Assembly: GCF_900108025.1 (NCBI RefSeq)
Contig: NZ_FNUS01000001.1
Coordinates: 124,001 to 188,000 of the forward strand
Direction: 5' to 3'
From: Halpernia humi
GTDB taxonomy: Bacteria > Bacteroidota > Bacteroidia > Flavobacteriales > Weeksellaceae
DNA: 64,000 nucleotides
A program made the translations under genes and the position numbers. A model generated the notes under the pieces. That model made no database searches and was not told the DNA's origin. It saw nothing but the letters and a program-made list of their open reading frames with translations. Below, piece after piece: positions 53,733 to 64,000 of the stretch. Position 1 is the stretch's first letter. Every line of letters starts with the position of its first letter.

Positions 53733-53748
53733 GTTTAAAATATTTTCA

Positions 53749-54012
53749 CTACGCCACGTTTCGGCGTAGTCATTTTTCATCTTTGTATCCTAAAACAGAA
53801 GAATATGGAAACAAAAGTGAATTTTAATGTGATGGAAGCAATTGAAAGTATTTATCAATAATTTAAAAAAAATCATTAAAAGTTTCTCAAAAAAGTCAGA
53901 AGATTCTATTTTAGAAATTGCAGAAGACTTGATTGAAGATATTTTGAAACCTCATTATGTAGCGCAACAGGAAGATGAGTGGTGGAAAAAAAAGAGGAAA
54001 TTTAGGAGGTGA
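53749..54012 (+). pseudogene. Repeat copy 0: AAA promoter and 5' fragment joined to a foreign 3' fragment
   Basis: CTACGCC..GGCGTAG (53749-53769), a -7-like CATCTTTG (53778-53785) and ATG 53805 repeat the start region of the AAA gene at 57614. The frame encodes 18 residues (METKVNFNVMEAIESIYQ) and stops. After TATCAAT the sequence switches to the 3' end of another gene (frame from 53854 to stop 54012, with KPHYVAQQEDEWWKKKRKFRR near the end, shortened here). Copy A at 55692-55956 has the same junction. A decayed, duplicated unit next to hipBA. Confidence 0.75.
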
Positions 54013-54047: not shown

Positions 54048-54090
54048 TTTGTTATTTCAAACAAAAACAATATATTTGTATGAAATAACA
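54048..54090 (+). promoter_or_regulatory. hipB promoter and inverted-repeat operator
   Basis: TTTG (54048-54051), 19 nt, TATATTTG (54071-54078): consensus. The inverted repeat TGTTATTTCA (54050-54059) and TGAAATAACA (54081-54090) frames the promoter, arms 31 nt apart, i.e. three helical turns. This fits autorepression by a HipB dimer pair. Confidence 0.75.
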
Positions 54091-54096
54091 GACGTT

Positions 54097-54387
54097 ATGA
54101 ATAAAAAAGAACAATTTATCCTTCCTAAATTTACTCAATTATTGGAAGAAATGGGAGAGAATATCAAACTTGCTAGAAAGCGGCGAAAATTAACAGCAGT
54201 TCAAGTAGCAGAAAGGGCAGGAATTGCTCGTTCAACCTTGTATTTAATAGAAAAAGGCGATTCCAGCGTTTCTTTTGGTGCGTATTTTAATGTTTTGCGA
54301 GTTTTGAGATTACAAGATGATGTTTTGAAATTGGCAGCAGATGATGAATTTGGCAGAAAACTTCAAGATTTGGAATTACTTAAATAG
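54097..54387 (+). CDS. hipB: HipB-like antitoxin, XRE family
   Basis: 96 aa from ATG 54097; the upstream ATG-less extension at 54049 would lie in the operator. XRE-type HTH (~20-75, NIKLARKRRKLTAVQVAERAGIARSTLYLIEKGD split across two helices). Binds the toxin HipA and represses the operon via the inverted repeat at 54050-54090. 8 bp before hipA. This is a type II toxin-antitoxin design. Confidence 0.92.
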   Translation: MNKKEQFILPKFTQLLEEMGENIKLARKRRKLTAVQVAERAGIARSTLYLIEKGDSSVSFGAYFNVLRVLRLQDDVLKLAADDEFGRKLQDLELLK

Positions 54388-54395
54388 TAAGAAAC

Positions 54396-55643
54396 ATGAA
54401 AAAAGGAAAATTTAACATTTACGTATTTGCAGATTGGAAAGGAATATCTGTTCATAAACATATAGGTATTTTTTCAGCACATTATGGCAAAGGAAAAAAA
54501 GCATTGAGTTTTGAGTATGATAAAAATTGGTTGAAGACGGAAAATCAGTGGCTTATCGATCCAGATATTCAGTTTTTTTCCGGTGCACAATTTCCTGATA
54601 ATAAAGAAAATTTTGGACTTTTTTTAGACAGTATGCCCGATACTTGGGGAAGAACTTTAATGAAAAGAAAAGCGGCACAGCAAGCAGGAGAAAATAATGA
54701 AAAACCACAAATTCTTTATGAAATTGATTACCTTCTTGGCGTATTTGACAAAACCAGAATGGGTGCTCTAAGGTTTAAAACTTCTCTTGATGGATCATTT
54801 CTAGATGATGATCAAAATAACTCAACTCCACCTTGGTCGTCCATTCGAGAACTTCAAGCAGCAGCAAAAAATCTTGAAGATGATGAAAATGCAGACGTCA
54901 AAAAATGGTTAGCAATTCTTTTGGCTCCCGGATCTTCTTTAGGTGGAGCAAGACCAAAAGCAAATATTGAGGATGAAAATGGAGATTTGTGGATTGCTAA
55001 ATTTCCTTCTAAAAATGATACAATTGATAAAGCAGCATGGGAATTTTTAGCATACCAATTGGCATTGGATAGTGGAATTGAAATGTCTGAATGCAAAATT
55101 GAAAAAATTGCTGGTAAACATTATACTTTTTTCACGAAAAGATTCGATAGAGAAAGCAATCAGAGAATTCACTTTGCATCGGCAATGACTATGACTGGTA
55201 ATAATGAAGAAGCACTGCGATTTTCAACAGCCAGTTATCTTGATATTGTAGAATTTATTTTAAATTTTGGCGCAAATATAAATGACAATCTTCATCAGTT
55301 GTGGCGAAGAATAGTTTTCAATATTTGTATTTCAAATACGGATGATCATTTAAGAAATCATGGTTTTATTCTAACACATAAAGGTTGGATTTTATCTCCT
55401 GCTTATGACTTAAATCCTTCTGTTGAAAAAAACGGATTGGCTTTAAATATAGATATGGACGATAATTCCTTGAATATAGAATTAGCAAAAAGTGTCGGTA
55501 TTTATTTTAGATTAAATGAAACCGAAATGAATTCCATAATTTCTGAAGTAAAAAAAGCAGTCAGCAACTGGAAAAATATTGCCTCAGAAATCGGAATTTC
55601 ACGAGGTGAACAGGAACTGATGAAAAGTGCTTTTCTATATTGA
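54396..55643 (+). CDS. hipA: HipA-like serine/threonine kinase toxin
   Basis: 415 aa. N-terminal HipA coupling domain (~1-110), with LDSMPDTWGRTLMKRKA; GSSLGGARPKA (~185, Gly-rich loop), ATP lysine in IAKFPSK (~202), catalytic NTDDHLRNHG (~314-323) and the metal Asp in SPAYDLNPS (~334-343). All active-site parts are present, so the toxin is probably intact. HipA kinases of this kind phosphorylate tRNA synthetases and halt growth; the target here is unknown. The last ~15 bp are repeated at 57494. Confidence 0.92.
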   Translation: MKKGKFNIYVFADWKGISVHKHIGIFSAHYGKGKKALSFEYDKNWLKTENQWLIDPDIQFFSGAQFPDNKENFGLFLDSMPDTWGRTLMKRKAAQQAGENNEKPQILYEIDYLLGVFDKTRMGALRFKTSLDGSFLDDDQNNSTPPWSSIRELQAAAKNLEDDENADVKKWLAILLAPGSSLGGARPKANIEDENGDLWIAKFPSKNDTIDKAAWEFLAYQLALDSGIEMSECKIEKIAGKHYTFFTKRFDRESNQRIHFASAMTMTGNNEEALRFSTASYLDIVEFILNFGANINDNLHQLWRRIVFNICISNTDDHLRNHGFILTHKGWILSPAYDLNPSVEKNGLALNIDMDDNSLNIELAKSVGIYFRLNETEMNSIISEVKKAVSNWKNIASEIGISRGEQELMKSAFLY

Positions 55644-55956
55644 ATCTGTAACGAATTCGATAATATTTTCCACAATTGAGTTTTTATTTTCACTACGCCA
55701 CGTTTCGGCGTAGTCATTTTTCATCTTTGTATTCTAAAACAAAAGAGCATAGAAACAAAAGTGAATTTTAATGTGATGGAAGCAATTGAAACTATTTATC
55801 AATAATTTTAAAAAAATCATTAAAAGTTTCTCAAAAAAACCAGAAGATTCTATCTTAAAACTTACAGAATAATTAATTGATGATGTTTTGAAACCTCATT
55901 ATGTAGCGCAACATGAGTACGAATGGTGGAAAATGAAGAGGAAATTTAGGACATAA
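55628..55956 (+). pseudogene. Repeat copy A: between hipA and fic
   Basis: 55628-55803 repeats 57494-57668 almost exactly: hipA 3' end, spacer, hairpin CTACGCC..GGCGTAG, CATCTTTG (55722-55729) and the AAA 5' end. The start codon is lost (ATA at 55749). After TATCAAT the same foreign 3' fragment as in copy 0 follows, with an internal stop (to 55956). So it cannot encode the AAA protein. The ~60 bp to the fic operator hold nothing else. Confidence 0.75.
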
Positions 55957-56016
55957 ATTTTCAAAATGAATGATTAACATTTTTTAGGAAAAATAAAATA
56001 GCAATTATTCTAATTT

Positions 56017-56076
56017 GCGGTAAATAACATTTCTATTCGTCGCAAATTTGCGGTAATTAATTCGTATATTTACCGC
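56017..56076 (+). promoter_or_regulatory. Operator-like repeats before fic
   Basis: GCGGTAAAT (56017-56025) and GCGGTAATT (56050-56058) are direct repeats, and ATTTACCGC (56068-56076) is their inverted copy. The third overlaps TATATTTA, a weak -7 box. Likely a repressor site; the C-terminal HTH of the Fic protein is a candidate binder. Confidence 0.6.
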
Positions 56077-56092
56077 ATTAAAAATAATGATA

Positions 56093-57193
56093 ATGGCAAA
56101 GTACATCTATCAAAATAAAAATTGGACAAACTTTACTTGGCAAGATAAAGCCATCAATACCGTTTTTGGCGATGTGCGTCATCTGCAAGGAAAAATTGCT
56201 GGACAAATGATTTCTCTTGGTTTTTCTGCAAAAGAAGAAGCCAATCTTACTACACTAACTTTAGATGTGGTAAAATCTTCTGAAATAGAAGGCGAACAAT
56301 TGAATTATGATCAAGTGCGATCTTCCATAGCAAGACGTTTAGGTTTAGATGTAGCAGGTCTAGTTCCAACCGATAGAAATGTTGAAGGAGTTGTAGAAAT
56401 GATGTTAGATGCCACTCAAAATTATTTACAGCCTATAACCGATGACCGTTTATTTGGATGGCATTCAGCGTTATTTCCTACTGGACACAGCGGGATGTAT
56501 AAAATTGAAGTAGGAAAATACCGAACTGGAGAAATGCAAATTGTTTCCGGAGCAATGGGTAAAGAAAAAATACAGTACAAAGCCATTGAACCAAAAATGG
56601 TACAGCAAGAAATGAATGAATTTATTAATTGGCTGAATAGTGAATCAAAGATAGATTTGGTGCTAAAATCTGCCATTGCTCATTTTTGGTTTATCATTAT
56701 ACATCCATTTGATGATGGAAACGGAAGAATTGCGAGAGCGATTTCAGATTTATTATTGGCGCGTGCAGATGGAAGTTCGGAACGATTTTATAGCATGTCA
56801 AGCCAAATTTTGGTGGAACGAAAACGCTATTACGAAATATTACAAAAAGTACAACACAGCAACGGCGATATTACTGAATGGCTTGAATGGTTTTTGCATT
56901 GTTTAAAAAACGCTCTGCAAGAAACTGAAATCAGTCTAAAAAAAGTAGTTTACAAAACTGAATTCTGGAAATTGCACGAACATACCTCTTTGAACGAAAG
57001 ACAACGTTTGGTTTTGAATAAGGTATTAGATGGATTTGATGGAAAACTAAAATCATCAAAATGGGCAAAAATAGCGAAATGTTCTACCGATACAGCATTG
57101 CGAGACATTAAAGACTTATTGGAAAAGGGAATTTTAAAACAAGAAGAACAAGGCGGCCGCAGTACAAATTATGAATTAATGAAAATGGAATGA
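56093..57193 (+). CDS. Class II Fic protein (putative AMP transferase)
   Basis: 366 aa from ATG 56093 (ATG 56087 is also possible). DUF4172-like N-terminus, inhibitory helix motif S62-x3-E66-G67 (SSEIEG), Fic motif HPFDDGNGRIAR (~204-215) and a C-terminal winged-helix part (WAKIAKCSTDTALRDIKDLLEKGIL). The inhibitory helix is in the same chain, so the enzyme is expected to be self-restrained. It would transfer AMP from ATP to a target hydroxyl. A stand-alone cassette between direct repeats A and B. Confidence 0.92.
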   Translation: MAKYIYQNKNWTNFTWQDKAINTVFGDVRHLQGKIAGQMISLGFSAKEEANLTTLTLDVVKSSEIEGEQLNYDQVRSSIARRLGLDVAGLVPTDRNVEGVVEMMLDATQNYLQPITDDRLFGWHSALFPTGHSGMYKIEVGKYRTGEMQIVSGAMGKEKIQYKAIEPKMVQQEMNEFINWLNSESKIDLVLKSAIAHFWFIIIHPFDDGNGRIARAISDLLLARADGSSERFYSMSSQILVERKRYYEILQKVQHSNGDITEWLEWFLHCLKNALQETEISLKKVVYKTEFWKLHEHTSLNERQRLVLNKVLDGFDGKLKSSKWAKIAKCSTDTALRDIKDLLEKGILKQEEQGGRSTNYELMKME

Positions 57194-57239
57194 ACTTAAA
57201 AACCTCTGAAATAAAAAACTATTAACAACTAATTAAATC

Positions 57240-57264
57240 GCAGGAGATCACATTCCTGCTTTTT
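57240..57264 (+). terminator. Terminator after fic
   Basis: GCAGGA (57240-57245) and TCCTGC (57254-57259), then TTTTT. Confidence 0.75.
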
Positions 57265-57329
57265 CGTTTGCAGAAGACTTTGATAAATAAAATTTAAAAG
57301 AAGAAATCATCGATTTTTTTCTGTAACAA

Positions 57330-57367
57330 ATGTCCAGTTTTTTGCATAATAAACTGGACATTTTTTT
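57330..57367 (+). terminator. Second hairpin terminator after fic
   Basis: ATGTCCAGTTT (57330-57340) and AAACTGGACAT (57351-57361) with a 10-nt loop, then T residues. It is strong and far from the fic stop, perhaps left from another lost gene. The ~125 nt to repeat copy B are A/T-rich with nothing recognisable. Confidence 0.85.
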
Positions 57368-57493
57368 CTATTTTGTATAAAAAAAACGACGAAAATTACT
57401 TATTTTAGAGTAATTAATACAAATCGTCTCTAAAAAATTAAAGGTTTCACTACTATTATTTTTACTTTAATGTCATAATGAATTAAGCAAATT

Positions 57494-57668
57494 GCTTTTC
57501 TATATTGAATCTGTAACGAATTCGATAATATTTTCCACAATTAAGTTTTTATTTTCACTACGCCACGTTTCGGCGTAGTCATTTTTCATCTTTGTATTCT
57601 AAAACAAAAGGATATGGAAACAAAAGTGAATTTTAATGTGATGGAAGCAATTGAAACTATTTATCAAT
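57494..57668 (+). repeat. Repeat copy B: intact promoter and 5' end of the AAA gene
   Basis: ~175 bp nearly identical to 55628-55803, starting with 15 bp of the hipA 3' end although no hipA precedes it here. It holds CTACGCC..GGCGTAG (CGCC at 57561), CATCTTTG (57587-57594, exactly 26 nt further) and ATG 57614. The fic cassette therefore lies between direct repeats. Confidence 0.85.
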
Positions 57669-59278
57669 TTTCCAAAGATAGTCAACTGCGACAACCACTT
57701 TTTGAAGTGGTAGAAAATGAAATCAAACTGCTTTCGAATTATTTGCAACTCAATGACATTGAAACGGTTTTATTCGCAAACACCTTCGTTTTATGGTTTG
57801 AAAATAGCAGTTTTAATGCTGTTTTTGATCATTTTGGACTTTCCAATTTTCAGGTTTTGAAATATAGAGAATCTATCGAAATGTTGTACAATCGAAATCT
57901 TTTGATGAATAAAAACGCACACAAACAGCAAATTTCATCTTACGAACTTTCCCAAAATATCATCAATTCTATTTCTAGAAACCAACTCATTAAATATTCT
58001 AAAATTGAAGAATCTTCGTGCAAAAAAAACTTGGTAGATTTTCTAGAAGAATTTGATAAAATGAGCGACCAATTTGATAGAGAATTAATCAGTCACTATG
58101 ATTTCACAGAATATATTGCAACCCTTTGCTTCGACAATTTAGAAATGCCCATTTTCCGGGAAATCAAAAATTATCAACTCGATCCGTTCGAAACTTATTT
58201 CTTTTTAGATACCATTTGGGATTGTATCACTTGCGGCGATAATGATTTTAACACTTTTGTTCAATCTACAGTCAATGATTATTTTCCAAAAAAAAGTCAA
58301 GCGATGAGATTTCATAAATTAATAATTAACAAAGAAACCAAACTTTCAAAACTCAATTTAATTGAAATTTCAAAAGAAAATTTTCAAAATAGAAATAAGG
58401 CGAAACTTTCCAAAAAAGTAACCGATTTTCTGCGAGATAATGAAGATTTAATGATTGATGAAACTTCAAATAACCATTCAAAACTTATTAAAGCAAAAGA
58501 TATTTCGGCGAAAAAACTATTCTACAATTTTGAAGAAAACAACCAATTGCAGCAAATTTTAAATATTTTGGATGATGGTAAATTTAAAGAAATGCAACAA
58601 AGATTGAAAGAAAAATCATTGCCAATTGGACTTACAACAATTCTTCACGGCGTTCCCGGAACTGGGAAAACGGAAAGTGTTTATCAGTTGGCAAAAGAAT
58701 CTGGCAGAAATATTTTTAAAGTAGATATTTCCGAAACCAAAAGCATGTGGTTTGGCGAAAGTCAGAAACTAGTAAAGAAAATTTTCACGGAATATCAAGA
58801 AATGAAAAAGACAGAAGAACTTTGCCCAATTCTTTTATTTAATGAAGCCGATGCCATTATTGGCAAACGCAAATCTGCAGGAATTTCCAATGTTGCGGAC
58901 ACCGAAAATTCAATTCAAAATGTTATTTTAGAAGAGATGGAAAAATTTGACGGAATCCTTTTCGCTACCACAAATTTGGTTGAAAATATGGATGCTGCTT
59001 TTGAACGCCGATTTTTATTTAAAGTAAAATTTGAGCAACCTTCCTTTGAAAATTCAGCAAAAATATGGCAAGAAAAACTTCCCCTTCTTTCGGAAAAAGA
59101 AAGCCAAATTCTTGCCGAGAAATTCAAATTTTCTGGTGGAGAAATGGAAAATATTGCCCGAAAATGGGCGATGCAGGAAATTCTGGAAAACAAAAAACTA
59201 AAATTTTCTGATATTGAAAATCTTTGCAAAAATGAAAAATGGAGTGAGAAATGTGAAAATAGGAAAATTGGGTTTTGA
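57614..59278 (+). CDS. AAA+ ATPase with a helical N-terminal domain
   Basis: 554 aa. The first ~300 residues are helical and unassigned. The AAA+ domain follows: Walker A GVPGTGKTE (346-354), Walker B PILLFNEADAII (~405-416) and the Arg-finger segment FERRFLFKVKF (~460). Asn replaces Asp in the usual DEAD-like Walker B start (LFNEAD). This is typical of substrate-remodelling ATPases. Its promoter and first 57 bp occur in three copies. It shares promoter design with three genes downstream. Confidence 0.85.
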   Translation: METKVNFNVMEAIETIYQFSKDSQLRQPLFEVVENEIKLLSNYLQLNDIETVLFANTFVLWFENSSFNAVFDHFGLSNFQVLKYRESIEMLYNRNLLMNKNAHKQQISSYELSQNIINSISRNQLIKYSKIEESSCKKNLVDFLEEFDKMSDQFDRELISHYDFTEYIATLCFDNLEMPIFREIKNYQLDPFETYFFLDTIWDCITCGDNDFNTFVQSTVNDYFPKKSQAMRFHKLIINKETKLSKLNLIEISKENFQNRNKAKLSKKVTDFLRDNEDLMIDETSNNHSKLIKAKDISAKKLFYNFEENNQLQQILNILDDGKFKEMQQRLKEKSLPIGLTTILHGVPGTGKTESVYQLAKESGRNIFKVDISETKSMWFGESQKLVKKIFTEYQEMKKTEELCPILLFNEADAIIGKRKSAGISNVADTENSIQNVILEEMEKFDGILFATTNLVENMDAAFERRFLFKVKFEQPSFENSAKIWQEKLPLLSEKESQILAEKFKFSGGEMENIARKWAMQEILENKKLKFSDIENLCKNEKWSEKCENRKIGF

Positions 59279-59290
59279 AAAACGTTCTTC

Positions 59291-59342
59291 ACTTTGTCAA
59301 AATTTTGCACAGCATGAAAATAACTTTGACAAAGTTTTTTTT
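59291..59342 (+). terminator. Terminator after the AAA gene
   Basis: ACTTTGTCAAA (59291-59301) and TTTGACAAAGT (59325-59335) form a perfect 11-bp stem, then T residues. The promoter of the next gene starts directly after it. Confidence 0.85.
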
Positions 59343-59344
59343 AC

Positions 59345-59378
59345 CGCCTCATTTTGTCCGAATCCAAATCTAATTTTG
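59345..59378 (+). promoter_or_regulatory. Promoter with CGCC-TTTTG motif, Asp-box gene
   Basis: CGCCTCATTTTGTC (59345-59358), with TAATTTTG (59371-59378) as the -7 box exactly 26 nt from the start of CGCC. The motif covers the -33 region. The same spacing is found at 57561, 59696 and 62180. Confidence 0.7.
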
Positions 59379-59406
59379 TGCTACTAACTTTTTAAAAACA
59401 AAAATT

Positions 59407-59640
59407 ATGTCACAAATTATTACACGCGGAAAAGAATTAATCCGCATTTCGCCAAAAGACAACAAAAAATTAGAAAAATCAACAAACGGAGGTGTAAGTT
59501 GGATCACTAGATTTAATGGTTCATCTTCAGTTGGTGAATTTCAAGATCTTACAGATATTGGAAAAGAAATTTTGGGAACGACTTCCAAAGGTCTTTTTAA
59601 GTCAACTAATGACGGTATTTCTTGGATAAGAAAATCTTAA
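59407..59640 (+). CDS. Small protein with two Asp-box-like repeats
   Basis: 77 aa, soluble, no signal. Two degenerate Asp-box motifs (STNGGVSWI and STNDGISWI, pattern S-x-N/D-x-G-x-S-W). Two such units alone cannot make a beta-propeller, so it may oligomerise or bind a partner. It has its own promoter and terminator. No family recognised. Confidence 0.7.
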   Translation: MSQIITRGKELIRISPKDNKKLEKSTNGGVSWITRFNGSSSVGEFQDLTDIGKEILGTTSKGLFKSTNDGISWIRKS

Positions 59641-59654
59641 ATTTTCCATCTCAA

Positions 59655-59692
59655 CTTTGCCAAAGTTCAAAATCTTTGGCAAAGGTTTTTTT
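59655..59692 (+). terminator. Terminator after the Asp-box gene
   Basis: CTTTGCCAAAG (59655-59665) and CTTTGGCAAAG (59674-59684), then G and T run. Confidence 0.85.
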
Positions 59693-59695
59693 AAC

Positions 59696-59729
59696 CGCCA
59701 TATTTTGTCGTTCTACTTTTCTATCTTTG
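59696..59729 (+). promoter_or_regulatory. Promoter with CGCC-TTTTG motif, WYL gene
   Basis: CGCCATATTTTGTC (59696-59709), and TATCTTTG (59722-59729) exactly 26 nt downstream. Start codon 17 nt after the -7 box. Likely autoregulation by the WYL protein. Confidence 0.75.
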
Positions 59730-59746
59730 AAATAAATTAAAACAAA

Positions 59747-60664
59747 ATGGCAAAAAACGAACAAATGCTTCGCTTAAAATTCATAGAAGAATTGCTAAGA
59801 AGAAGAAAAGAAAAAGGAGCGTCTTACAAAGAAATTGAAGATTTTTTACAAGAAAAATTTAACGAAAAAGGTCTGACTCTCAAATTTACAGAACGCACTT
59901 TTTTGCGTGATAAAGTTGCAATTTCAGATGTTTTTGGGATCAGCATTTCTTACTCCCGACAAAGAAATATTTATTTCATTGAAGATGAAGAACTAGAACT
60001 TTTTCAAGAAAGTGTTTTTGATCAATTACTTCTCGTAGAAGCCTATAGACAAACAAAGGGCAATACCGATGTGATGTTTTTTGAACATAGAAGAGCCAGA
60101 GGTTTAGAACACCTTCATGGGATTATTCATGCCATTACCAATAAAAAAGTCATCAAATTTAATTACCAAAAATTTTGGGAAAACGAAAAATTCGAGAAGT
60201 TAGTAGAGCCTTATGCTTTGAAAGAATTTAAAAACCGATGGTACCTTTTAGCAGCCGATTTTAAACCTAAAAATGGAGAATTTTTTCTAAAAACTTTTGG
60301 TTTAGATCGAATTTCAGACCTGGAAATCACTAGTTCTACATTCAAAAGAAAAACGATAAATATAGAAGAAACTTACAAGTATTTTTTTGGAATCATCAAC
60401 GCAACTGGCGACGAGCCACAAGAAATTTTACTTAAATTCGATAGCGAACAAGCCAATTATGTGAAAGCATTAAAGTTGCATAATTCCCAAACAATTGTTT
60501 CGGAAAACGCAGAAGAAACCGTTTTCAGAGTATTTTTAGTGCCAACTTACGATTTTCAGAGAGAAATTCTGTCTTACGGAAATCGCGTGAAAATCATCTC
60601 GCCCGAAAGTTTCAAAAACCAAATGAAAGCAGAAGTAGAAGATATGTTGAAAAATTTTGTTTAA
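59747..60664 (+). CDS. WYL-domain transcriptional regulator
   Basis: 305 aa. N-terminal winged HTH (~1-70, with GASYKEIEDFLQEKF), WYL domain (~125-200, RWYLLAADF and KTFGLDRI) and a C-terminal WCX-like extension. WYL regulators such as BrxR and CapW control defence genes in many bacteria and may sense nucleotides or nucleic acid. 10 bp upstream of the DUF2779 gene. It is the natural candidate to bind the shared CGCC motif. Confidence 0.92.
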   Translation: MAKNEQMLRLKFIEELLRRRKEKGASYKEIEDFLQEKFNEKGLTLKFTERTFLRDKVAISDVFGISISYSRQRNIYFIEDEELELFQESVFDQLLLVEAYRQTKGNTDVMFFEHRRARGLEHLHGIIHAITNKKVIKFNYQKFWENEKFEKLVEPYALKEFKNRWYLLAADFKPKNGEFFLKTFGLDRISDLEITSSTFKRKTINIEETYKYFFGIINATGDEPQEILLKFDSEQANYVKALKLHNSQTIVSENAEETVFRVFLVPTYDFQREILSYGNRVKIISPESFKNQMKAEVEDMLKNFV

Positions 60665-60674
60665 GTATAAAATA

Positions 60675-62150
60675 ATGAAAAACCTTTCCAAATCTAAATT
60701 TGTTTCCGGAATTCAATGTGAAAAAAAACTGTGGTTTGATTTCTACAGAAAAGATTTAAAACCAGAAACTGACGCCCAAACACAAGCGGTTTTTGATCTC
60801 GGGCATCGCATCGGAATATTGGCGCAAGAAATGTTCCCCAACGGAAAAGATGCGACACCAGAAGATTATTCCAACTTAAAACCTTCTATAGAAAATACAA
60901 AAAAATGGATTTCCGAAAAAGTAGAAACCATTTATGAAGCCACTTTTAGCGTGAAAAATGCTTTTTGCATGCTCGATATATTGCACAGAAATGATGATGA
61001 AGTTTGGGCAATTGAAGTGAAAAGCAGTACTTCTGTGAAAGAGTATCATTTAACAGATGCTTCGCTACAATATTTTGTGATGAAAAATGCGGGTTTTGTA
61101 CCAGATCGATTTTTCATGATGTTCGTCAATAATCAATACATAAAACATGGTGAAATTACCTCTGAAATCTTCATATTAGAAGACATTACGGAAGAAGTTA
61201 TCGCAAATCAAGATTGGGTTGCAGAAAATTTGGATCGATTATTGAAAATGTTGGAAATTGAACAAGAACCAGTGGTGGAAATTGGCGCACATTGTTCCAA
61301 TCCTTTTGGTTGCGATTACGCCCATCATTGCTGGAAACATGTTCCACAATATTCTGTTTTTAATTTATATCGAGGTGGAAAAAAAGGTTGGAATCTTTAC
61401 GAGCAAAATATTTTAAAAATTGACGAAATTCCAGATGATTTTACTTTGACGCATTTTCAAAATCTTCAACGAAACGGGTTGAAAAATGATGAAACTTATA
61501 TGAATAAATTAGCCATTAAAAATCTGATTTCTAATTGGGAATTTCCGCTTTATTTCTTTGATTTTGAAACTATTTTTCCTGCAATTCCAGTTTTTGATGG
61601 AACACGACCTTACCAGCAAGTTCCGTTTCAATATTCGCTGCATATTTTGGATAAAGACGGAAATCTTTCGCATAAAGAGTTTCTCGCTAATCCCGAAGAT
61701 TTCAGTAATGGTGAAAATCCTTTAAAACAAATGGTGGGACAATTGAAAAAAGATTTTGGCAGCAAAGGAAATATTGTGACATACAACCAAAGTTTTGAAA
61801 AAGGAAGATTAAACGAATTAGCACAATTTTTCCCTGAAGACGCGCATTTTCTACATCAATTAGTAGATCGAATTGTAGATTTACTTCCTGTTTTTCAAGG
61901 TGGATATTGCTATTTTCCTGCCATGAAAAATTCGGCTTCTATCAAATCTGTTTTACCTGCAATTGCACCGGATTTTACTTATGCAAATTTAGAAATTCAA
62001 GACGGCGGATCTGCAAGTTCTTTGTTTGAGAAATCCATAGAAAATGGAAATTTTATAGATGATAATCTTCGCGAAAACCTTTTGAAATATTGCGAAAGAG
62101 ATACGCTTGCAATGGTGATTATCTACCAATTTTTAGTTGATTTATTTTAA
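60675..62150 (+). CDS. DUF2779 protein: Cas4-like nuclease joined to a DnaQ-like domain
   Basis: 491 aa from ATG 60675. The N-terminal half is Cas4/RecB-like: Cys15 (IQCEKKLW), MLDILHRNDDEVWAIEVKSS with the D...E-x-K active site, and three Cys at ~207, 213 and 219 (HCSNPFGCDYAHHCW), a set that could hold a 4Fe-4S cluster. The C-terminal half is DUF2779, with FFDFETI (~297), QSFEKGRL and CERDTLAM, resembling DEDD exonucleases. So both a nuclease and an exonuclease fold are predicted. No Cas1/Cas2 or CRISPR array is nearby. Confidence 0.85.
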   Translation: MKNLSKSKFVSGIQCEKKLWFDFYRKDLKPETDAQTQAVFDLGHRIGILAQEMFPNGKDATPEDYSNLKPSIENTKKWISEKVETIYEATFSVKNAFCMLDILHRNDDEVWAIEVKSSTSVKEYHLTDASLQYFVMKNAGFVPDRFFMMFVNNQYIKHGEITSEIFILEDITEEVIANQDWVAENLDRLLKMLEIEQEPVVEIGAHCSNPFGCDYAHHCWKHVPQYSVFNLYRGGKKGWNLYEQNILKIDEIPDDFTLTHFQNLQRNGLKNDETYMNKLAIKNLISNWEFPLYFFDFETIFPAIPVFDGTRPYQQVPFQYSLHILDKDGNLSHKEFLANPEDFSNGENPLKQMVGQLKKDFGSKGNIVTYNQSFEKGRLNELAQFFPEDAHFLHQLVDRIVDLLPVFQGGYCYFPAMKNSASIKSVLPAIAPDFTYANLEIQDGGSASSLFEKSIENGNFIDDNLRENLLKYCERDTLAMVIIYQFLVDLF

Positions 62151-62179
62151 TTTTAAAATAAATAAAACGACATTTTAAA

Positions 62180-62213
62180 CGCCATGTTTTGTCTGAATCC
62201 CTTGGTAATTTTA
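62180..62213 (+). promoter_or_regulatory. Promoter with CGCC-TTTTG motif, unknown gene
   Basis: CGCCATGTTTTGTC (62180-62193), and TAATTTTA (62206-62213) exactly 26 nt from CGCC. One base differs from TAnnTTTG. It faces the gene at 62337 through the remnant at 62251. Confidence 0.65.
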
Positions 62214-62250
62214 CAGTATTAAAAAATCAATACTATTAAAAATTTTAATT

Positions 62251-62339
62251 ATGAAATCGCCATGATCTGCTAATGCAAACACCTATGAAGATTCAGCGAG
62301 TGCAGATGACCTAAAAAAAACAATAAACATCTATATATG
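62251..62339 (+). pseudogene. Remnant of a ~30-codon leader frame
   Basis: ATG AAA TCG CCA then a stop, after which the same frame reads on (with ANTYEDSASADDLKKT) to a stop overlapping ATG 62337. The locus at 27150 has the same start and NTYED but is broken elsewhere. The two together imply an ancestral small frame of about 30 codons starting MKSP. Confidence 0.5.
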
Positions 62340-63014
62340 AAAGGCGAAAGAGACACCGTATTCCAAATGACAAATGAAAATAATCTCATCCAAATTATTT
62401 GTTTAAAAAAAGAAGAACAACAAGGATTCGACTATTTTGTGGAAGAACTCAATCATCAGAATTTAGATTTTGTAAAACCAAAAATTCACGAAAGTTTTTA
62501 TAGCGCTTTTGATGAATTAAACGAGAGATTTCCGTGGCATACTTATCATTTGGAATATTCGGATGAAGATTTCAGAGATTACGTCGCAGATTGCTTGGTA
62601 GAAAAAGTAAATGACAGCAAGCGCATGTTTTTTGCGCCAAGAAAACGCCACTTCGAAGACATTTTAAAAATTCACTTAAAAACGAAAGACGTTAAAGTAA
62701 AAACTGGCGTATTTAGTATTGAAGTCTGCAACCTCAATAAGGAAACGCAATATTTTTACCAAGAATTTGTAGATTCTTACGCCCAAGAAATCGGTCAGAA
62801 ATTTAAACTCGAGAGCACCACAGAAACTTGGGAAACTTACAGTTCAGATTCGTTTGATTTTATAGGTAATATAGAGGTCTTAGGAAATTCTGTTTTAAAA
62901 GACAGCGATGGCGATATTTGTTACGTTTTGGCAGCGGATAAATATAAGTTTACAGCAACGCCGCTCACTTATACCGCCCAGAAATGGGAGTGGAATTTTG
63001 TAAAAAGAAATTAA
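62337..63014 (+). CDS. Hypothetical protein (225 aa)
   Basis: 225 aa, soluble. No family recognised. Visible features are an acidic N-terminal half (IQIICLKKEEQQGFDYFVEEL, FPWHTYHLEYSDEDFRDY) and a C-terminal half with WETYSSDSFDFIGN and YTAQKWEWNFV. It shares the island's CGCC-TTTTG promoter design, so it may work with the AAA and WYL-DUF2779 genes. The C-terminal part might be a separate small beta domain. Confidence 0.7.
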   Translation: MKGERDTVFQMTNENNLIQIICLKKEEQQGFDYFVEELNHQNLDFVKPKIHESFYSAFDELNERFPWHTYHLEYSDEDFRDYVADCLVEKVNDSKRMFFAPRKRHFEDILKIHLKTKDVKVKTGVFSIEVCNLNKETQYFYQEFVDSYAQEIGQKFKLESTTETWETYSSDSFDFIGNIEVLGNSVLKDSDGDICYVLAADKYKFTATPLTYTAQKWEWNFVKRN

Positions 63015-63271
63015 ATGTAACAATCTAAAAATCAGTTTTTTAAAAAAGAAAACAAAAAATTTCACCATTATACGGTTTGCCTTTTTTTTACTTTAAATTC
63101 TTTGCTTAAATTACACTCTTTTTAAAAATTAAAACTTACAATGAATCAAAATTGCTTTTATAAGATCATTTTTTTCTTTTATTAGCGATTGAAATTTGTT
63201 GTTTTTCTTTCATTTATTTAATTAAAATCTGCTTTTATTTATTTATTTTAGTGCACCAAACAAAAAACTAA
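63015..63271 (+). other. Gap before hsdR
   Basis: 257 bp of very A/T-rich sequence. No CGCC motif, strong terminator or clear promoter was found. Confidence 0.6.
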
Positions 63272-64000
63272 ATGGCTTTCAACGAAGATTCTCGCGTAAA
63301 AATTCCTGCAATACTGCATTTGATGCGTTTGGGATATCAATATATTTCGAAAGGAGAGCAAAAGAGAATTGAAGAAAGCAACATATTTCCTGATATTTTT
63401 AAAGAAAGTCTGCAGAGAATAAATCCTGAAGTTAGCGATGCAGAACTGGATTTGTTATTGGATGAAATCAATTTGAAGTTGGATTTTGAAGATTTGGGAG
63501 AAGATTTCTACAAAAATTTGGTTTCTGGTTCGGGAATTAAATTAATAGATTTTGAAAATTTTAATAACAATTCTTTTCACGTTACTACAGAACTGACTTG
63601 TAAAAATGAAGACGAGGAGTTTCGTCCAGATATTACGATTTTAATTAATGGATTGCCTTTAGCGTTTATCGAAGTGAAAAAACCCAACAATAAAGAAGGT
63701 GTTTTGGATGAACGCAAAAGAATGAATGCGAGATTTAAAAATAAAAAATTCCGGAAGTTCGCCAATATTACGCAGTTGATGATCTTTTCCAATAATATGG
63801 AATATGAAGATGGCGTGATAGAGCCAATTCAAGGTGCGTATTATACCACTTCGGCTTATGCAGATTTAAGGTTTAATTATTTTCGTGAAGATGCAGATTT
63901 CCCAGTAATCACCAAATTTATTCCTGATTCTGAAGCACTGGAAAATTTTGTTTTGAAAGATAATAATTTGAGTGCGATAAAACATTCACCAGAATTTATC
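63272..64000 (+). CDS. hsdR: Type I restriction endonuclease subunit R, 5' part
   Basis: 243 codons from ATG 63272, open to the window end. This is the HsdR N-terminal nuclease domain: D120 in FRPDITIL and E134-x-K136 in FIEVKKP give D-x13-E-x-K; QLMIFSNNMEY and the YYTTSAY.DLRF segment follow. The helicase part, and hsdM/hsdS, would lie beyond the window. HsdR cuts unmodified DNA after ATP-driven translocation. It lies downstream of the WYL/AAA genes. Confidence 0.9.
   Translation, partial: MAFNEDSRVKIPAILHLMRLGYQYISKGEQKRIEESNIFPDIFKESLQRINPEVSDAELDLLLDEINLKLDFEDLGEDFYKNLVSGSGIKLIDFENFNNNSFHVTTELTCKNEDEEFRPDITILINGLPLAFIEVKKPNNKEGVLDERKRMNARFKNKKFRKFANITQLMIFSNNMEYEDGVIEPIQGAYYTTSAYADLRFNYFREDADFPVITKFIPDSEALENFVLKDNNLSAIKHSPEFI

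Follow-up and report, generated by a model that had tools for sequence, protein, structure and literature searches.

Positions 57,614 to 63,014 of a 64,000-nucleotide stretch of the Halpernia humi genome (the window) belong to a defence-type island, the solid core of which is the pairing of a AAA+ ATPase with a WYL transcription regulator. On balance, we lean towards the view that this is a modular island under WYL control, into which different nucleases can be plugged and in which the AAA motor cooperates with those exchangeable nucleases. A preliminary description of the window had put forward five genes as a candidate system. All five open reading frames were found where it had placed them, and a Pfam scan recovered the AAA (PF00004), WYL (PF13280) and DUF2779 (PF11074) domains it had named, and in addition WCX (PF25583) in the WYL protein. 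The five genes are:

57614..59278, forward strand: AAA+ ATPase, 554 residues (PF00004, E 4e-23, in the C-terminal half)
59407..59640, forward strand: asp77, 77 residues with two Asp-box-like repeats; homologues are found beside or near AAA genes
59747..60664, forward strand: WYL transcription regulator, 305 residues, with WYL and WCX domains (Pfam)
60675..62150, forward strand: DUF2779 nuclease, 491 residues (PF11074, 142.9 bits, E 8e-42; gathering threshold 23.3)
62337..63014, forward strand: u225, a 225-residue orphan protein, not a conserved component

When 84,980 species genomes were searched with an alignment of the AAA family, 80 loci were returned, which together with one viral contig make up the 81 AAA loci considered here. 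In 42 of the 81 a WYL gene lies within 4.5 kb of the AAA gene, compared to 0.34 expected from a background WYL density that was taken from 60 genomes of the window's family and not from all the phyla compared. The two genes are no more than 350 nt apart in 24 of these 42 loci, which come from Bacteroidota, Spirochaetota and Planctomycetes metagenome-assembled genomes. Distances among the AAA proteins are correlated with those among their WYL partners (Mantel r 0.69 over 43 pairs, reached in 0 of 2000 permutations), although shared vertical descent could also produce this. The WYL protein of the window scores above the cut-off for both of its domains (PF13280, 48.6 bits; PF25583, 38.2 bits); its first ~110 residues have no helix-turn-helix match in Pfam. 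Its nearest relatives (74-79% identical), collected in a WYL search that was independent of AAA, accompany differing payloads.

The AAA protein consists of an N-terminal helical domain (residues ~1-250) and a classical AAA module (residues 283-553). In an alignment of 45 sequences the Walker A motif, an NE Walker B, an MWFGES pore loop and an RR finger are invariant, the residues concerned being G346..K352-T353, N410-E411, W379, G381, N454 and R465-R466; N410 occupies the Walker B position where Asp is usual. The AlphaFold2 model has a mean predicted local distance difference test score (pLDDT) of 85, and the fold of residues 283-553 matches those of proteasomal ATPases, Trip13, Vps4, spastin and FtsH (for Trip13, 6p8v: Z 20.8, root-mean-square deviation (rmsd) 3.2, 248 residues). 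With its Walker motifs, arginine fingers, aromatic pore loop and fold, the protein belongs to the classical AAA remodelling ATPases. The N-terminal region, modelled alone with a pLDDT of 89.5, is harder to place. Residues 26-125 resemble MarR/SlyA-like winged helices weakly (Z up to 6.7, rmsd 3.4, 91 residues; VIA-align) and residues 187-254 resemble the N terminus of MukF, also weakly (Z 5.5, rmsd 2.4-2.6, 64 residues), while a Foldseek search with the domain gave no match at E < 0.001. A PIF1-like helicase is naturally fused to the N-terminal side of the AAA family in a single 899-residue open reading frame (L124, 5747-8446), and this fusion ties the AAA protein to DNA. We regard the protein as a classical motor of the hexamer type; besides its aromatic pore loop, it has an N-terminal region that is predicted to bind DNA. 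Its family is uncatalogued.

Some copies of the AAA gene are disrupted. That of Frigoriflavimonas (L044, 9171-10867, the same locus as L054) is split by stop codons next to an intact asp77, and the copy on a plasmid of Chryseobacterium balustinum is likewise split into two open reading frames. Among viral contigs the only AAA match was on a 339-kb IMG/VR contig (L126, 6047-7828), where an AAA module 52% identical to residues 286-554 of the window protein is joined to a different N terminus; phages gave a single weak match. The protein on this contig is possibly a phage-borne relative.

The DUF2779 gene follows the WYL gene closely. Its reading frame opens at a TTG (60657) and its ATG is at 60675, 10 nt after the WYL stop codon at 60664; given this gap, the two genes are probably one transcription unit. 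The preliminary description had called the product a Cas4-like plus DnaQ-like nuclease, and this holds: the Cas4 and RNase_H_2 matches are weak, but the nuclease residues are intact. A Cas4-like PD-(D/E)xK domain with four cysteines is followed by a DEDD exonuclease-like domain, and C15, C207, C213, C219, E88, D101, E114, K116, D296, E298, D402 and D476 are invariant in 11 homologues. The four cysteines, together with D101, E114 and K116, are those of a Cas4-like Fe-S nuclease. No cas gene was present among the scanned genes of the window (54049-63999), a scan that did not extend to CRISPR arrays, and a sequence search of the PDB gave no match.

DUF2779 genes occur in 10 of the 81 AAA loci, compared to 0.013 expected, which is a ~700-fold enrichment. 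The family is carried by 19 of 395 Bacteroidota genomes, in which matches reach 41% identity to the window protein, whereas the AAA-linked proteins of L052 and L047 are 56-65% identical to it; a relative with 73% identity, beside a WYL gene, turned up in the later WYL search. Since the closest relatives are AAA-linked, the view that DUF2779 proteins have a housekeeping role only is too simple. On plasmids, DUF2779 genes are next to WYL genes in Aliarcobacter butzleri, Rhodoferax and Diaphorobacter; in A. cryaerophilus the neighbour is a Qat system. Of the papers found on DUF2779, none has a title or abstract about defence, and they do not describe a function of the family.

The small protein asp77 is a recurrent companion of this core. 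Its designation as an Asp-box protein stands in part: the BNR/Asp-box match (PF02012) is below the cut-off (E 0.014, 15.7 bits compared to a gathering threshold of 27), but two S-x-x-x-G-x-x-W repeats are conserved throughout the family, which is, to judge from its sequences, a genuine conserved one. Homologues are present at 10 further AAA loci. Asp77 was found in 4 of 396 Flavobacteriales genomes. In three Flavobacteriales genomes besides that of the window, its neighbours are genes for a DnaQ-like exonuclease and/or of the GmrSD type; these islands lack this AAA gene, and a WYL relative is located inside or just beside each of the three. FtsZ-like proteins are encoded among the GmrSD and asp77 or WYL genes of Flavobacteriales islands (L207, 7391-8311; L263), and dynamin-like GTPases in the L156 and L044 islands. 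Both are possible further payload types.

The promoters of the island share a sequence element, which had been described as a common promoter design. The element is real and local, and is due partly to a palindrome and partly to duplication of the AAA promoter. Four putative operators were located:

57560..57576, forward strand: ACGCCACGTTTCGGCGT, a palindrome over the -33 box, ~54 nt before the AAA gene; three genomic copies, each within the island
59344..59360, forward strand: CCGCCTCATTTTGTCCG, before asp77
59695..59711, forward strand: CCGCCATATTTTGTCGT, before the WYL gene
62179..62195, forward strand: ACGCCATGTTTTGTCTG, before the 225-residue gene

As we read the sequences, these sites align as a 17-bp palindrome, approximately ACGnCAnnnTTTGnCGT, which coincides with the -33 box in promoters of the Bacteroidota type. 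The genome (3.1 Mb) contains the exact string CGCCNNRTTTTGTC at four places, of which three precede asp77, WYL and u225, and all three genomic copies of TACGCCACGTTTCGGCGTA are within the island. The element as it stands at the AAA promoter is also found at the AAA promoters of L047, L048, L050, L054 and L082. When a matrix was trained with the window and four Kaistella/Frigoriflavimonas loci as its sole input, 11 of 139 held-out regions upstream of AAA, WYL, asp77 or DUF2779 genes reached the cut-off score of 13, compared to 9 of 718 others (P 6e-5). The pattern CGnC-N7-GnCG precedes 7 of the 16 WYL relatives that were collected without reference to AAA, compared to 8 of 195 other genes (P 2e-5), and 8 of 85 AAA genes, compared to 9 of 671 others (P 2e-4). 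Because the palindrome recurs at the AAA and related WYL promoters of other genomes, it is probably the WYL operator. A genome-wide regulon defined by the loose palindrome (17-mer, two mismatches) is unsupported, as its 32 matches show no excess over the 27 in the reversed control. In Moheibacter lacus, recA has a palindrome of this kind, AACGACATATTTTGTCATT, in front of it (L057, ~3734, minus strand).

Gene orders in other genomes show that the genes behave as modules around the WYL regulator. The order of the window, Fic-AAA-WYL-DUF2779, recurs in a Bacteroidales metagenome-assembled genome (L082), in which the Fic protein is 70% identical to that of the window; L047 has AAA..WYL-DUF2779 and L052 AAA-x-DUF2779-WYL. 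A plasmid of Segatella hominis carries AAA-HAD-PD-(D/E)XK-WYL. On the C. balustinum plasmid NZ_CP033935 the order is exonuclease-GmrSD-GmrSD-AAA-asp77-WYL-GTPase-GTPase. Among the AAA loci, hsdR is present in 7 and GmrSD-like genes in ~10. The firm units are the AAA-WYL pair and the WYL-DUF2779 bicistron, with asp77 as their recurrent small companion. AAA, asp77, WYL and DUF2779 genes occur together across genomes far above chance; the 225-residue protein, which had been grouped with them, has no relatives among plasmids or the 396 Flavobacteriales genomes and reaches the cut-off of no family in Pfam, PADLOC or NCBIfam. It is a passenger sharing the island's promoter element.

The island is preceded by dnaK, a HipBA-like pair and a Fic gene, and is followed by hsdR. 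Beyond the edge of the window come hsdM, a YhcG-like gene and hsdS. The flanks had been given correctly as toxin-antitoxin/Fic cassettes and a type I restriction gene. The boundaries between the genes had been described as terminator-promoter pairs. One terminator is convincing, but the WYL and DUF2779 genes are too close for this description and the overall count of four terminators is at chance level (shuffle mean 3.5). The remaining features are:

53737..53870, forward strand: decayed duplicate of the AAA promoter with the initial ~17 codons of AAA, running into what is left of a relaxase C terminus, before HipBA (from the alignment; whole fusion 53737-54012)
55640..55805, forward strand: second decayed duplicate of the AAA promoter, with the start of AAA and a comparable remnant behind it, before Fic (from the alignment; whole fusion 55640-55960)
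56087..57193, forward strand: Fic protein (DUF4172 and Fic domains), directly upstream of the AAA gene; context
59655..59684, forward strand: intrinsic terminator with an 11-bp stem and T run, between asp77 and WYL

The two decayed copies account for two of the three occurrences of TACGCCACGTTTCGGCGTA, and a relaxase-like homologue of 381 residues is intact in L050. Such copies point to insertion or recombination having taken place here more than once. The position directly behind dnaK is a hot spot in more than one genome: another member of the family (L251) has WYL-DUF2779 there among different neighbours, which include an 865-residue NTPase-like protein.

Gene content, co-occurrence, catalytic motifs and the association of the palindromes with AAA and WYL promoters can be read directly from the sequences, and on them the following scheme is built, which proposes a binder for the palindrome, an inducing signal, a substrate for the AAA protein, its joint action with the DUF2779 protein and an anti-phage function. 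A WYL dimer would sit on the 17-bp palindrome at the -33 box of the AAA, asp77, WYL-DUF2779 and u225 promoters and keep expression low. A nucleotide or nucleic-acid signal arising from phage infection or DNA damage might release it. The AAA motor would then remodel a nucleoprotein, either pulling foreign DNA apart or stripping protein off it, and the DUF2779 payload, a Cas4-like Fe-S nuclease combined with a DEDD exonuclease, would degrade the DNA thus exposed. In other genomes the payload position is filled otherwise, by a DnaQ-like exonuclease with GmrSD proteins, by a UDG-like protein or by a PLD nuclease. The role of asp77 would be that of a small all-beta adaptor.

Several observations weigh against this scheme. 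Twenty-six AAA loci with sufficient flanking sequence have no WYL gene within 4.5 kb, and the expected linkage was calculated from the background of one family. The AAA proteins of L046 and L050 are 80% identical and their WYL proteins only 26%, so the partner can be swapped. The winged-helix match of the N-terminal domain is weak (best Z 6.7). The loci are related, and the P values therefore overstate independence. Since the palindrome coincides in part with a core promoter box and is also present before some other genes, another regulator could read it. Finally, the parts are found separately: AAA-asp77-WYL without DUF2779 on the C. balustinum plasmid, WYL-DUF2779 (77% and 73% identity) without AAA beside dnaK in G055 (L251), and 18 other Bacteroidota DUF2779 loci with WYL nearby in one and AAA in none. 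With such separable genes and an orphan as the fifth, the idea of one fixed five-gene system was rejected.

The same separations are the strength of the main rival, a hot spot of independent cassettes, which we regard as quite possible. According to it, AAA(-asp77) and WYL-DUF2779 are separate units that ended up as neighbours behind dnaK; they have only a style of promoter and operator in common, with no joint action of the AAA protein and the nuclease. The solitary state of DUF2779 in most other Bacteroidota carriers, the duplicated AAA promoters with relaxase remnants and the wide variety of WYL partners all agree with it. It does not account well, however, for the strong enrichment of DUF2779 near AAA, for the identical four-gene order in a distant Bacteroidales genome or for the same kind of palindrome at the AAA and WYL-DUF2779 promoters. 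An improbable alternative is a stress or DNA-repair module, a WYL-controlled damage response in which DNA lesions are dealt with by the AAA protein and the Cas4/DnaQ-like nuclease. Some WYL regulators are reported to be responsive to genotoxic stress (PMC10693628), both proteins look DNA-directed, and the recA palindrome of L057 is related; but the patchy spread of DUF2779 and asp77, carriage on plasmids, and the restriction, toxin-antitoxin, GmrSD and Qat neighbours fit mobile defence better. Descent of the island from a named system, such as IetAS or Trip13-type CBASS, of which it would be a divergent form, is very improbable. The AAA protein matches IetA weakly and Trip13 is among its structural matches, but numerous classical AAA proteins are equally good matches, and no subtilisin-like, HORMA or nucleotidyltransferase partner is among the scanned genes.

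Should the modular defence island be confirmed, an uncatalogued AAA family, a 77-residue adaptor and a defined WYL operator would join the defence repertoire of Bacteroidota and relatives of Treponema, and the island would be a concrete case of exchangeable effectors under one regulator. More tentatively, it might represent an uncatalogued anti-phage kit widely distributed across Bacteroidota and Spirochaetota, with a DNA-binding AAA unfoldase and a dedicated WYL repressor as the chassis, DUF2779, DnaQ-like plus GmrSD, UDG-like or PLD nucleases as exchangeable parts and asp77 as a shared adaptor. The weaker reading still provides a candidate operator from which target genes of this WYL clade can be predicted.

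The combination had not been recognised as a named system, and PADLOC-DB and NCBIfam indeed hold no above-threshold model for it; the open-access literature on WYL, AAA, GmrSD and Asp-box proteins combined yielded known systems only. UU173-like DUF2779 proteins (PF11074) and Cas4 share with the window nuclease the four cysteines, the PD-(D/E)xK motif and the DEDD-like C-terminal domain. Unlike Cas4, it is not CRISPR-linked among the scanned genes, and it misses the cut-off of the UU173 subfamily (88 bits compared to 225). IetAS likewise has a AAA ATPase within a defence island, with partial similarity over the AAA module (70.6 bits in PADLOC; 71.0 in NCBIfam NF042959, far below the cut-off of 510), but the N-terminal domain differs, the partners are WYL and nucleases, and no peptidase family such as the subtilisin-like protease IetS was detected among the scanned genes. 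Trip13-type CBASS also uses a classical AAA remodelling motor and can be accompanied by a WYL protein, CapW; sequence similarity is confined to the AAA module (43 bits for Trip13 in PADLOC), and neither a CD-NTase nor a HORMA gene is among the scanned genes. The closest resemblance is to BrxR and CapW, which are WYL repressors, CapW binding promoter palindromes of ~20 bp (PMC9122588). Here, too, a protein with WYL and WCX domains is in or beside defence genes and an imperfect palindrome of ~17-20 bp is in the promoters (PMC9122588, PMC9122601). In the window the palindrome to which the WYL protein would bind lies over the -33 box of promoters of the Bacteroidota type, and the island has several separate promoters (AAA, asp77 and WYL-DUF2779), unlike a CBASS or BREX operon. 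Because it falls outside IetAS and CBASS and resembles the BrxR/CapW arrangement, the locus is best described as a WYL-regulated defence island with an uncatalogued AAA protein.

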